Under the pieces are notes generated by a model. That model saw only the letters and a list, made by a program, of their open reading frames with translations, had not been told where the DNA came from and made no database searches. From NCBI GenBank assembly GCA_013214705.1, contig JABSRZ010000004.1, forward strand, positions 372,001-436,000: DNA of 64,000 bases, given 5' to 3'. The stretch comes from Hyphomicrobiales bacterium. GTDB lineage: Bacteria > Pseudomonadota > Alphaproteobacteria > Rhizobiales > OSC116. Below are positions 33,933 to 37,763 of the stretch, one piece after another (positions within the stretch are counted from its first letter, which is position 1; every line of letters starts with the position of its first letter). Position numbers and translations under genes: made by a program.

Positions 33933-34871
33933 ATGGCCAAAACTCATTCAAAACTCATCATCCTAGGGTCTGGCCCAGCCGGTTATAGTGCGGCCATTTA
34001 TGCAGCTCGCGCTATGTTAGAGCCGCTCATCATTCAAGGCATTCAGCCTGGCGGCCAACTCACCATCACCACCGAGGTCGAAAATTACCCGGGTTTTGCC
34101 GATGAAATCCAAGGTCCATGGCTTATGGAACAAATGCAGGCCCAAGCCGAAAAAATGGGCGCTCTCACCGTTGAAGATCATATTATGAAGGTCGATTTAA
34201 ACGCCAAACCGATCGAACTTATTGGCGATGGCGGCACCAAATATACCTGCGATGCGCTCATCATTTGCACCGGCGCACAGGCCAAATGGCTAGGTCTACC
34301 GTCAGAACAAGAGTTTCAAGGCTTTGGCGTATCTGCCTGCGCCACTTGCGATGGGTTTTTCTATCGCGGCAAAGAGGTTGTGGTGGTTGGCGGCGGCAAT
34401 ACTGCGGTCGAAGAAGCTTTGTTTTTAACCAATTTTGCCACCAAAGTCACCATAATGCACCGGCGCGATAGCTTCAGAGCCGAAAAAATCCTCATCAACC
34501 GGTTAGAGAAAAACCCAAAAATCGAAATTTTATGGGACAGCACATTAGAGGAAATTGTCGGCGAAATGCCCAAAGGTGTCACCGGCGCAAAAGTTAAAAA
34601 TGTCAAAACTGGCGAAACCAGCATTATTCCTGCCGACGGCGTGTTCATCGCCATTGGTCATGCGCCAGCAACTTCATTATTTACCGACCAGTTAGAAACC
34701 AAACAAGGCGGCTACTTAATCACCGCGCCAGATAGCACTGCCACCAAGATAGCTGGCGTTTATGCCGCTGGCGATGTAACCGACGATAAATACCGCCAAG
34801 CCGTAACTGCGGCGGGTCTGGGCTGCATGGCCGCGCTAGAAGTCGAAAAATATTTGGCAGAACAAGAATAA
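33933..34871 (+). CDS. trxB: thioredoxin reductase
   Basis: Passes electrons from NADPH through FAD to thioredoxin. The FAD-binding motif is ILGSGPAGYSAAIYAARA at residues 10-27, the redox cysteines are Cys136 and Cys139 in SACATCDGFF, the NADPH motif is VVVGGGNTAVEEALFLTNF, and the C-terminal FAD contact is GVYAAGDVTDDKYRQAVTAAGLGC. At 312 residues it is the low-molecular-weight type. The LysR gene follows on the same strand after 36 bases. Confidence 0.97.
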   Translation: MAKTHSKLIILGSGPAGYSAAIYAARAMLEPLIIQGIQPGGQLTITTEVENYPGFADEIQGPWLMEQMQAQAEKMGALTVEDHIMKVDLNAKPIELIGDGGTKYTCDALIICTGAQAKWLGLPSEQEFQGFGVSACATCDGFFYRGKEVVVVGGGNTAVEEALFLTNFATKVTIMHRRDSFRAEKILINRLEKNPKIEILWDSTLEEIVGEMPKGVTGAKVKNVKTGETSIIPADGVFIAIGHAPATSLFTDQLETKQGGYLITAPDSTATKIAGVYAAGDVTDDKYRQAVTAAGLGCMAALEVEKYLAEQE

Positions 34872-34907: not shown

Positions 34908-35795
34908 ATGGATTGGGACAAATTACGTATATTTCATGCGGTTGCCGCCGCGGGTAGTTTTACCCATGCCGGCGAAGAATTGCATTTAAGCCAAAGCGCA
35001 GTGAGCCGCCAAATTGCCAATTTAGAACATGAAGTGAAAACCAAATTATTCTTGCGTCACGCCCGCGGCCTCAAGCTGACTGAGCAAGGTGAAATGTTAT
35101 ACCGCACCGCGCATGATGTTTTCTCTAAGCTAAAAATGGCTGAAACCATGCTAAAAGACAGCACCGAAAAACCGTTTGGCGATTTAACCATCACCACCAC
35201 CGAAGGTTTGGGCACGAATTGGCTAACCCCCCGGCTCAGCGATTTTATGGATCAATATCCAGATGTGAATATTAAAATATTATTCAGCGATAGAGATGTA
35301 GATTTGGGCATGCGAGAAGCAGATTTGGCGATAAGATTGCACCGACCCACGCAGCAAGACCTTATTGCCCGCAAGTTATTCACTGTGCATTTTCATGTAT
35401 TTGCCTCACCTGACTATTTGGCAGAATATGGTACGCCGCAGACAATAGACGATCTAGAAGACCACAAAATCCTTACCTATGGCAGCAATGCCCCATCATA
35501 TTATAAAAACGTAAATTGGCTCGAAACATTGGGGCGCGACCCGCGCAAGCCACGCTCAGCCCATTTAAGCATGAATAGCGTGTATGGCCTAAAACGCGCC
35601 TGCATGTATGGCATTGGCCTCGCCGCTTTGCCCGATTATATAATCGATGATGCCAACTTGATACAGGTCTTACCGGACATCGAAGCTCCAGAATTTGATA
35701 CCTATTTGGTTTATCCGGTAGAATTACGCAATTCAAAACGCATCGGTGTGTTTAAAGAATTTCTAGTTTCAAAGGCCAAAGAATGGAAATTCTAG
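34908..35795 (+). CDS. LysR-family regulator in the LsrB/VtlR position
   Basis: A 295-residue LysR regulator. The HTH is MDWDKLRIFHAVAAAGSFTHAGEELHLSQSAVSRQIANLEHEVKTKLFLRHARGLKLTEQG, and the effector domain contains DRDVDLGMREADLAIRLHRPTQQDLIARKLF. This kind, next to trxB, is known in Rhizobiales as LsrB/VtlR, which activates AbcR small RNA genes. Here three AbcR-like RNA units lie directly downstream, so it is the best candidate regulator of them. The ribosome site AAGAGGGA (34893-34900) is itself complementary to the CCCTCCCTC loops of those RNAs. Orthology is inferred from position and family only. Confidence 0.85.
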   Translation: MDWDKLRIFHAVAAAGSFTHAGEELHLSQSAVSRQIANLEHEVKTKLFLRHARGLKLTEQGEMLYRTAHDVFSKLKMAETMLKDSTEKPFGDLTITTTEGLGTNWLTPRLSDFMDQYPDVNIKILFSDRDVDLGMREADLAIRLHRPTQQDLIARKLFTVHFHVFASPDYLAEYGTPQTIDDLEDHKILTYGSNAPSYYKNVNWLETLGRDPRKPRSAHLSMNSVYGLKRACMYGIGLAALPDYIIDDANLIQVLPDIEAPEFDTYLVYPVELRNSKRIGVFKEFLVSKAKEWKF

Positions 35796-35824: not shown

Positions 35825-35847
35825 AGCTATGCATTTAGCGCATAGCT
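35825..35847. promoter_or_regulatory. dyad element upstream of sRNA unit 1
   Basis: AGCTATGC (35825-35832) and GCATAGCT (35840-35847) form a perfect 8-bp inverted repeat around a 7-base centre. The same centre (TTAG-GCAT) recurs at a similar distance upstream of units 2 and 3. It includes a T-N11-A pattern, compatible with a LysR-type box. Confidence 0.65.
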
Positions 35848-35865
35848 CATACGCATTCATTGTAA

Positions 35866-35894
35866 TTGTAAAAATTTAGCCCATCGCCTATATA
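35866..35894 (+). promoter_or_regulatory. predicted promoter of sRNA unit 1
   Basis: TTGTAA (35866-35871) and TATATA (35889-35894) are 17 bp apart. The sequence after it (AACAGATC, CTCTA) is shared with the other two units, which places the start near 35901. Confidence 0.6.
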
Positions 35895-35900
35895 AGCAAT

Positions 35901-36030
35901 AACAGATCTCTCTAATTGTGTTGGAAGTTCCCTCCCTCTTTTCTTCCACATACTCCAATCTTCCCTCCCTTTTTGATTGGTAATTAGAGATGACTATGCG
36001 GGTAGCCTTTTGGCTCACCCGCTTTTTTTT
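35901..36030 (+). ncRNA. AbcR-like small RNA, unit 1 of 3
   Basis: A predicted RNA of about 130 nt. Hairpin 1 has stem GGAAG/CTTCC (35923-35927 with 35943-35947) with CCCTCCC in the loop at 35930-35936. Hairpin 2 has stem CCAATC/GATTGG (35955-35960 with 35975-35980) with CCCTCCC at 35963-35969. An intrinsic terminator ends it. Exposed CCCUCCC loops can bind Shine-Dalgarno sequences. The layout and place, between a LysR gene next to trxB and aatA, match the AbcR/alpha-r15 family of Hfq-dependent RNAs that repress ABC transporter mRNAs; cuckoo/alpha-r14 RNAs are the other family with such loops. No convincing protein is encoded here; apparent short frames arise from the repeats. Confidence 0.82.
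35998..36030 (+). terminator. intrinsic terminator of sRNA unit 1
   Basis: GCGGGTAGCC pairs with GGCT-C-ACCCGC (one bulged C) around TTTT, followed by eight T at 36023-36030. Confidence 0.93.
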
Positions 36031-36043
36031 GCCCCCATTTACT

Positions 36044-36060
36044 CATGCAATTAGTGCATG
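36044..36060. promoter_or_regulatory. dyad element upstream of sRNA unit 2
   Basis: CATGCA-ATTAG-TGCATG is a perfect 6-bp inverted repeat. The TTAGTGCATGGCTAC part (36051-36065) ends 15 bp before the -35 box, as it does in unit 3. Confidence 0.65.
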
Positions 36061-36080
36061 GCTACAAAGCGTTCAATATG

Positions 36081-36110
36081 TTGGTAAACAATAAATGAAT
36101 GGTCTATATT
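36081..36110 (+). promoter_or_regulatory. predicted promoter of sRNA unit 2
   Basis: TTGGTA (36081-36086) and TATATT (36105-36110) are 18 bp apart; the predicted start is near 36117. The same elements recur 217 bp later in unit 3. Confidence 0.7.
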
Positions 36111-36116
36111 TATTTC

Positions 36117-36247
36117 AACAGATCGCTCTAGGGTCTTACAGGAAGTTCCCTCCCTCTTTTCTTCCTGAAACGTCAATCTCCCTCCCTTTTGGTTGACATC
36201 TAGAGAATGACTATGCGGGTGGCCTTCTGGCTCACCCGCTTTTTTTT
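36117..36247 (+). ncRNA. AbcR-like small RNA, unit 2 of 3
   Basis: A predicted RNA of about 131 nt. Hairpin 1: CAGGAAG/CTTCCTG (36139-36145 with 36161-36167), loop CCCTCCC at 36148-36154. Hairpin 2: GTCAATC/GGTTGAC (36172-36178 with 36191-36197, one G-T pair), loop CCCTCCC at 36180-36186. Compared with unit 1 the stems have changed sequence on both sides while the C-rich loops are unchanged, a compensatory pattern that supports a selected RNA fold. The terminator stem also changes one pair from A-T to G-T. Unit 2 and unit 3 are nearly identical over the RNA body, which suggests a recent duplication. Confidence 0.85.
36215..36247 (+). terminator. intrinsic terminator of sRNA unit 2
   Basis: GCGGGTGGCC pairs with GGCT-C-ACCCGC around TTCT, then eight T at 36240-36247. 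It is nearly the same as the terminator of unit 1. Confidence 0.93.
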
Positions 36248-36260
36248 GCCCAAATTGACC

Positions 36261-36278
36261 CATGTAATTAGTGCATAG
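36261..36278. promoter_or_regulatory. dyad element upstream of sRNA unit 3
   Basis: CATGTA-ATTAG-TGCATAG is an imperfect copy of the dyad of unit 2; TTAGTGCATAGCTAC (36268-36282) again ends 15 bp before the -35 box. Confidence 0.55.
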
Positions 36279-36297
36279 CTACAAAGCGCTCAATATG

Positions 36298-36327
36298 TTG
36301 GTAAACAATAAATTAATAACCTATATT
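36298..36327 (+). promoter_or_regulatory. predicted promoter of sRNA unit 3
   Basis: TTGGTA (36298-36303) and TATATT (36322-36327), 18-bp spacer, predicted start near 36334. Confidence 0.7.
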
Positions 36328-36333
36328 TATTTC

Positions 36334-36462
36334 AACAGATCACTCTAGGGTCTTACAGGAAGTTCCCTCCCTCTTTTCTTCCTGAAACGTCAATCTCCCT
36401 CCCTTTTGGTTGACATCTAGAGAATGACTACAAGGCAGCTCTTTATGGGCTGCCTTTTTTTT
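36334..36462 (+). ncRNA. AbcR-like small RNA, unit 3 of 3
   Basis: A predicted RNA of about 129 nt. Hairpin 1: CAGGAAG/CTTCCTG (36356-36362 with 36378-36384), loop CCCTCCC at 36365-36371. Hairpin 2: GTCAATC/GGTTGAC (36389-36395 with 36408-36414), loop CCCTCCC at 36397-36403. The body equals unit 2, but the terminator hairpin is of different sequence (GGCAGC type rather than GCGGGT type). The RNA ends just before the terminator of aatA, which comes from the other strand, so the two transcripts end face to face. Confidence 0.85.
36433..36462 (+). terminator. intrinsic terminator of sRNA unit 3
   Basis: AGGCAGC pairs with GCTGCCT (36433-36439 with 36449-36455) followed by a run of eight T at 36455-36462. 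Confidence 0.92.
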
Positions 36463-36473
36463 ATGCGCGGCCG

Positions 36474-36500
36474 AAAAAAAAGGCCGAGAAAATCTCGGCC
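36474..36500 (-). terminator. intrinsic terminator of aatA
   Basis: On the minus strand GGCCGAGA pairs perfectly with TCTCGGCC around a 3-base loop, followed by eight T. It lies 21 bases beyond the aatA stop. Confidence 0.93.
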
Positions 36501-36521
36501 TAATTAATTTATGAAAATAAC

Positions 36522-37763
<1,242 letters not shown>

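Follow-up and report, generated by a model that had tools for sequence, protein, structure and literature searches.

C-rich small RNAs related to the locus

A C-rich motif is common to AbcR, NfeR1 and cuckoo RNAs, which catalogues list as separate families of small RNAs (sRNAs). The AbcR1/AbcR2 pair (alpha-r15, RF02345) of S. meliloti represses transport mRNAs through two such motifs: the first loop carries CUCCUCCC, and the segment linking the stem-loops carries UUCCCCUC, with AbcR1 being driven by LsrB and AbcR2 by RpoH1 (PMC8844928). Flanking the pair in both S. meliloti and A. tumefaciens are lsrB/vtlR on one side and a gene of arsR type on the other (PMC8844928, PMC7486931), and the LsrB/VtlR box was published as GCAT-N3-TG-N3-T, at -61 to -49 of PabcR1 (PMC7486931, PMC8844928). 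S. meliloti was described as having three homologues of alpha-r15, of which two are tandem copies, and alpha-r15 RNAs were said to be partly homologous to suhB (PMC7143759). NfeR1 (alpha-r14, RF02344) is activated by LsrB in S. meliloti and has three redundant loops (PMC10746234). The cuckoo/CcsR RNAs of the CIN locus include CcsR1-4, which share a processed transcript with ccaF1, made from an RpoHI/RpoHII promoter (PMC10253847), and the SisA-D (alpha-R8) siblings of Caulobacter carry a single-stranded CU-rich anti-Shine-Dalgarno (anti-SD) stretch behind promoters without a conserved common motif (PMC12559287).

The locus described here lies in a window of 64,000 nt (the whole stretch of DNA that was analysed) and comprises three putative sRNA genes in tandem. 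It resembles that of AbcR1/AbcR2 in its trxB-lsrB surroundings, tandem copies, LsrB-type promoter phase and terminators, and also in the C-rich anti-SD motif of the first hairpin loop, followed downstream by a second C-rich motif. It differs in that the second motif is placed in a hairpin loop, an outer stem clamps both hairpins, three copies are present that all carry the box core (the S. meliloti PabcR2 depends on RpoH1; PMC8844928), and the array has no Rfam ar15 match. With NfeR1 it shares the placement of all anti-SD motifs in hairpins with variable stems; NfeR1, however, has three hairpins with CCUCCUCCC and a different locus, whereas the window units have two with CCCUCCC plus a closing stem, and the window genus shows no Rfam ar14 match. 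As in cuckoo/CcsR, there are several homologous RNAs with CCU-rich hairpin loops, and both kinds of locus have a link to DUF1127 proteins, but each window unit has its own box and promoter, the upstream neighbour is the LysR gene and not a DUF1127 gene in the same transcript, and the loops are CCCUCCC, similar to but not the repeated CCUCCUCCC. The likeness to SisA-D consists in being sibling RNAs with a CU-rich anti-SD stretch. A third AbcR copy alone is not new, given the three S. meliloti homologues (PMC7143759). What is unusual is a tandem array of three copies that all show the LsrB-type promoter phase, together with the clamped double-loop fold; no description of a triple tandem AbcR locus or of this fold was found in the part of the literature searched, which excludes most subscription papers.

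Organisation of the locus

The features of the locus are the following (window coordinates; sRNA ends are predicted):

33933..34871, + strand: trxB, thioredoxin reductase (Pfam Pyr_redox_2)
34908..35795, + strand: lsrB/vtlR-type LysR regulator, presumed activator (Pfam HTH_1 and LysR_substrate)
35840..35846, + strand: unit 1 LysR-box core GCATAGC, right half of an ATGC-N7-GCAT dyad
35888..35893, + strand: unit 1 -10 element CTATAT, 48 nt past the box core
35900..36030, + strand: unit 1 putative sRNA with closing stem, two CCCTCCC hairpins and terminator
35930-35936 and 35963-35969, + strand: unit 1 loops; the T-run extends to 36030
36056..36062, + strand: unit 2 LysR-box core GCATGGC
36104..36109, + strand: unit 2 -10 element CTATAT, 48 nt past the box core
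36117..36247, + strand: unit 2 putative sRNA, terminator included
36126-36131 and 36200-36205, + strand: unit 2 closing stem CTCTAG/CTAGAG; loops at 36148-36154 and 36180-36186
36273..36279, + strand: unit 3 LysR-box core GCATAGC
36321..36326, + strand: unit 3 -10 element CTATAT, 48 nt past the box core
36334..36462, + strand: unit 3 putative sRNA
36343-36348 and 36417-36422, + strand: unit 3 closing stem CTCTAG/CTAGAG; loops at 36365-36371 and 36397-36403
36432-36456, + strand: unit 3 own terminator, followed by a T-run
36522..37727, - strand: aatA-like aminotransferase, convergent with the array (Pfam Aminotran_1_2)

The array thus sits directly behind trxB-lsrB/vtlR. Among 41 genomes, that of the window included, 36 have a match to the LysR gene at E <= 1e-50, and trxB adjoins the gene in 28 of 30 loci (L004-L033). 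On the trxB-lsrB-sRNA order and the shared box and promoter phase, the site is the AbcR locus. An earlier note on this DNA, which had proposed an AbcR-type locus with a third copy, was right as regards the locus and the third tandem copy, while membership of alpha-r15 or alpha-r14 was not upheld by family models (see below); its statement that the AbcR pair lies between the LysR gene and aatA does not agree with the arsR-type neighbour reported for S. meliloti and A. tumefaciens (PMC8844928, PMC7486931). The possibility that the array is a leader of aatA was rejected because this gene converges with it. Transcription of the array from the opposite strand would present GGA loops, a feature of CsrA-binding RNAs, but it is on the + strand that the T-runs come after the hairpins, and this option was discarded for that reason. 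Directly past unit 3, at 36481-36501, the minus strand has a hairpin and T-run that probably form the aatA terminator.

The units contain 50-nt core repeats spaced by 218 and 217 nt. Of the seven CCCTCCC motifs in the 64 kb, six fall within 35930-36403, two in each unit; the total (3.41 expected; reached in 7 of 100 shuffles) is unremarkable, the clustering and the placement in hairpin loops being what is remarkable. The longest open reading frame (ORF) within the array is antisense and codes for 70 aa, a separate 78-aa ORF starts beyond the array, and five array ORFs that were scanned matched no Pfam family to E 0.1, DUF1127 included. The three tandem units, the two CCCTCCC-loop hairpins in each and the lack of an encoded protein, all announced in the earlier note, were therefore borne out by the repeat spacing, by motif positions and folds, and by the ORF analysis, respectively. 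The outer closing stem, the LysR box and the mosaic history of the units were absent from that note. Concerning the latter, identity between units 2 and 3 amounts to 99% for the body and 53% for the terminator, against 72% for the body and 90% for the terminator between units 1 and 2; this disparity suggests recombination between the copies. Only three copies were found in the window genome, all of them in the array.

LysR box and promoter phase

The earlier note had assigned a sigma-70-like promoter to each unit. A generic sigma-70 scan lent this no support, as it found one site in unit 2 and one in unit 3 where 2.4 were expected, and proves nothing by itself. Better evidence is the 48-nt phase between box and -10 element: CTATAT follows the box core at exactly this distance in all three units, which is also the phase of the AbcR1 promoter. 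By itself, the 7-mer box core occurs in the window no more often than expected (36 vs 35.95).

The phase was also analysed in the regions behind the LysR gene at 114 loci, that is, 116 minus L041 (no LysR match in its stretch) and L073 (same contig as L039), a set that still holds other duplicates and many close relatives, so that its counts are not independent. These regions contain 140 half-boxes GCATRRC. Among 61 CTATAT-like sites (at most one mismatch) found 30-70 nt past a half-box, 35 are at exactly 48 nt, the commonest spacing, and the first CTCCC falls 80-100 nt past the half-box in 71 of 89 cases. Counted per locus, a -10-like site at 47-51 nt is present in only 30/114 and CTCCC at 80-100 nt in 58/114. 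The reverse-strand control (92 half-boxes) gave 3/5 distances at 47-51 nt and 4/4 at 80-100 nt, and probably includes two inverted units of genome G005.

The form of the box seen in 69 promoters from outside the genus is ATGC-N7-GCATGGCTG-N-CATGCA. The upstream T-N11-A dyad is present in 9/9 genus promoters and in 46/69 of the others. The full published box was found in 39/69 of these others, against 0/9 genus promoters (the first unit of G003 does carry it, but was left out of the promoter set by the distance filter) and 0/3 window promoters, which have the GCAT-N3-T part only. In the first (a-type) copies of other species CTATAT is missing at that phase in three of four, the fourth having GCATAT.

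Fold, terminators and covariation

When folded alone, each unit is predicted to form an outer stem around two hairpins whose wide loops contain CCCTCCC; a terminator hairpin with its T-run comes next, and the folding z-scores are -7.1, -4.3 and -3.4. An intrinsic terminator for every unit, as the earlier note had it, was recovered in these folds (3/3 as hairpin plus T-run), and a simple terminator scan listed that of the third unit only. The clamped two-loop shape was obtained for all 12 genus copies folded (three from the window and nine others) and for 6 of 1200 shuffles (100 per copy, C-rich blocks kept). The first anti-SD motif lies in the 5' hairpin loop in 12/12 folds, as in AbcR. The second, which in AbcR is unpaired between stem-loops, was in that state in 0/12 folds and in a hairpin loop in 12/12.

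Covariation was analysed in the eight copies of the better-alignable type. Two-sided changes that keep pairing affect 12 of 27 pairs, seven in the two hairpins and five in the terminator, a number reached in 0/500 shuffles, and the covariation value of 0.275 (0.148 in shuffles) was likewise reached in none of 500. Sliding the partner strands lowered every covariation measure. Further pair types were not exceptional among these copies (18 vs 15.6; 64/500 shuffles reach the value), and 62.5% of the terminator cells pair, which was counted against the fold. The compensatory changes support the two predicted hairpins. The closing stem is invariant among the eight aligned copies, which says nothing on covariation there; across copy types it varies with pairing kept, being CTCTAG/CTAGAG in units 2 and 3, CTCTAATT/AATTAGAG in unit 1 and TCTCTGG/CCAGAGA in the first copies of G001 and G005. 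RNAalifold run on all 12 copies recovered the terminator stem only, we think as a result of MAFFT misregistering the two copy types. A covariance model built from all 12 copies (R1) kept only six terminator pairs and was not used.

Family models

At gathering threshold, Rfam gave a single tRNA in the window. At E up to 10 there were 36 matches in the array, none above its gathering score; the best was SorY on the minus strand (E 0.0057), and a suhB match (RF00519; E 0.028, 22.8 of 41 bits) was too weak to be used. The search with the ar15 and ar14 models that had been proposed for the array gave no match with either to E 10. In the six genus genomes there was no ar15 match to E 1 and no ar14 match to E 0.1 (0/6). 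By the models tested, the array belongs to neither family. The ar15 model is narrow: of 41 genomes of the order, G028 alone scores above its cut-off, with matches beside the LysR gene. Weak ar14 matches were found beside the lsrB-type gene in G010 and G011, one genome having best E values of 6.6e-4 and 0.001; in G010 the ar14 match had E 6.6e-4 and the ar15 match was not significant (E 0.07). Weak matches of both kinds count for little because control genomes match too, 4/14 with ar15 at E up to 1 and 1/14 with ar14 at E up to 0.1. Of ten loci with ar14 matches (L168-L177), the box phase was present only at L176, beside an lsrB-type gene, and its absence from the other nine speaks against a common LsrB origin of the ar14 family.

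Distribution in the genus and the order

The window genome (G000; 3.5 Mb, 98.87% complete) belongs to the same order as Rhizobium, as seen through G028, a genome of this order that groups with Rhizobium and Agrobacterium records; the remark in the earlier note that the organism does not look like a typical Rhizobiales is thus not sustained, although the genus does sit on an early branch. A FastTree phylogeny of LysR and TrxB placed it there together with G011 at weak support (0.71), which makes G011 the likely sister of the window genus. The window LysR protein has one cysteine (residue 232) and those of G003 and G011 have none, so that all three lack the conserved redox cysteine pair C144/C273 of the Agrobacterium LsrB (PMC11975290); because this pair is missing, the signal sensed may differ from that of the Agrobacterium protein.

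Besides the window, copies were read in four genomes of the genus: two in G001, three in G005, three in G003 and one in G002. A third copy in G001 is clipped by a contig end beside aatA, and G004 has one copy, found by model search. In G005 (L035, 1554-1907) two units are inverted relative to lsrB, while the first keeps its orientation. Copies adjoin lsrB and/or aatA in 5/6 genus genomes; that of G004 has no lsrB, trxB or aatA in its fetched stretch. Model R2 matched only the six genus genomes among the 41, with incomplete sensitivity (stricter filters miss the first G003 copy, which another R2 search found). Weak R2 matches at L166 and L167 were dropped, as they are without C-rich loops.

A scan of units along the order, covering only loci with a half-box and terminator near the gene, returned 82 units at 66 of the 114 loci, 10 of them from the genus. 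The clamped two-loop shape was predicted in 10/10 genus units and in 0/72 units outside the genus, of which 59 have one C-rich loop, six have two loops without a surrounding stem of at least five pairs, and seven have none. In these models the clamped double-loop fold is seen only in the window genus. Two RNAs with two C-rich loops lie in tandem in G011, one unit having four enclosing pairs, just below the threshold of five. In G009, which is not sister to the genus in the LysR and TrxB tree, a UUCCCCUC stretch lies in the second hairpin loop, elsewhere being the unpaired second AbcR site. The array of G010 (L059), too distant from the gene for the scan, comprises several RNA-like units located some 1000-2100 nt past the LysR gene; as many as three CTCC motifs occur per unit, and three units have the 48-nt phase when two mismatches are allowed. 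Where its relatives have one or two AbcR RNAs, the window bacterium has the three putative sRNA genes of the array. By eye, C-rich repeats (CTCCC, GCCTCCCTGTT) and a terminator were also noted in the first 700 nt behind the LysR gene of Thalassospira (L140, L141) and Minwuia (L088, L104). As these records, named for other groups, show C-rich motifs and a terminator, there is a hint that the link between LsrB and sRNAs may be older than the order.

Candidate targets

The pattern GGGAGG-N4-9-ATG has 42 sites in the genome against six for the reversed pattern, and control AGGAGG sites are about as frequent (51 vs 11 reversed). ORFs of at least 60 aa follow 23 of the 42 GGGAGG and 34 of the 51 AGGAGG matches. 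ABC solute-binding proteins account for 5/23 GGGAGG genes and 1/33 AGGAGG genes (p 0.037, one-sided and uncorrected), where the denominator 33 counts two overlapping ORFs in L252 once, 30 of the 34 AGGAGG ORFs were sent to Pfam, and the four outside that scan (the two in L252, L263 and L265) were taken as non-transporters. With a TRAP protein included the count is 5 vs 2 (p 0.09), and for any ABC part it is 8/23 vs 6/33 (p 0.14). The enrichment in transporters among putative target genes is thus weak and suggestive only. Three of the solute-binding-protein genes were compared with orthologues in five genomes: that of L186 has GGGAGGGAAA in 4/4 orthologous copies (three genomes) and GGGAGGGGAA in the window genome, that of L210 has GGGAGG in 3/3 copies (three genomes), and that of L207 has GAGGGAGGG in the single orthologue found (one genome), which at 98% identity is little informative. 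A strong Shine-Dalgarno site would be conserved regardless of sRNA pairing.

Proposed function and alternatives

We consider it likely that the array encodes three LsrB/VtlR-activated, trans-acting sRNAs of the AbcR locus that pair with Shine-Dalgarno sites of uptake mRNAs. Transcription, LsrB binding and activation, target repression and mode of action are what we infer here, partly by analogy with AbcR and NfeR1. Each unit would probably be transcribed from its own LsrB/VtlR-activated sigma-70 promoter, yielding an RNA whose two CCCUCCC loops, which resemble the ribosomal anti-SD, would be held on a closed scaffold. Pairing of the loops with GGGAGGG-type Shine-Dalgarno sites would block translation and accelerate decay of mRNAs that encode solute-binding proteins or serve uptake in other ways, and Hfq, for which the window genome has a gene, may assist the pairing RNAs. 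Three copies with a common promoter phase would mainly raise dosage, and by analogy the two loops of each RNA may be redundant. The second loop most likely represents the second AbcR pairing site (UUCCCCUC), which would have shifted from an unpaired stretch to a hairpin. The array offers a natural case for asking why cells keep several near-identical riboregulators and whether a closing stem alters target finding by two seed loops.

A wider reading, which we hold to be doubtful, is that AbcR (alpha-r15), NfeR1 (alpha-r14) and cuckoo-type RNAs form one LsrB-linked lineage of modular anti-SD hairpins whose numbers of hairpins and RNAs grew by duplication, with the genus as a surviving intermediate that carries the two AbcR sites as equal loops on a clamped three-way scaffold. 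If true, a single RNA would present two ribosome-mimicking loops at once. The combination of AbcR position and phase with the all-in-loops layout of NfeR1, and the other layouts that relatives have there, make common descent testable; it tells against this reading that L176 alone among the ten ar14 loci showed the box phase. Should the RNAs instead be of cuckoo/CcsR or alpha-r14 (NfeR1) type and stand beside lsrB by chance, not as AbcR descendants, the placement of all C-rich motifs in hairpin loops would be as in those families (PMC3927594, PMC10746234), and the weak ar14 matches beside the lsrB-type gene of G010 and G011 would fit. This we regard as improbable in view of the missing ar14 matches in the genus, the motif being CCCTCCC and not CCTCCTCCC, the lack of DUF1127 among the scanned array ORFs, and a box phase and position that are those of AbcR1.

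The preferred reading of mRNA-repressing AbcR-locus sRNAs was also weighed against sponging, in which the loops would bind G-rich RNAs or the array would titrate free LsrB. The several similar copies and promoters could serve such a role, and the CU-rich alpha-R8 siblings of Caulobacter have a G/A-rich sRNA as pairing partner (PMC12559287), but promoter, fold and terminator are kept in each copy and Shine-Dalgarno complementarity is kept in the orthologues found, so that we give this explanation very little credence. It seems very unlikely that the units are non-functional repeats or a mobile element with hairpins: the near-identity of the unit 2 and 3 bodies and the two inverted copies of G005 would be in keeping with it, and against it stand the confinement of the three genome copies found to the array, the compensatory changes and the recurrence of copies beside lsrB and/or aatA in the genus.

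The box at DUF1127 genes

A pattern search of seven genomes for the box, 40-43 nt and TATAT gave 29 matches, against seven for the reversed pattern. The 29 rows comprise 10 array units (at nine sites), nine DUF1127-type sites, first chosen by eye for a common promoter look, and 10 that are neither. Whole proteins were available from seven of the nine DUF1127-type sites, and 7/7 match Pfam DUF1127, in five genomes (that of the window and four others of the genus); the ORF of L285 is clipped, and L287 (G004) has no ORF of 40 aa after the box. The five pattern matches of the window genome are the three units, one other site and one DUF1127 gene:

L286 1255-1437, - strand: DUF1127 gene of the window genome, box at G000:C34:316340

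In Brucella, VtlR was reported to control abcR2 and three DUF1127 genes (PMC12595884), and the assignment of the box therefore has outside support. Further DUF1127 genes with box and spacing are those of L284, L290, L291, L296, L302 and L277, and such box sites lie near each other in two genomes, two in G001 and three in G002.
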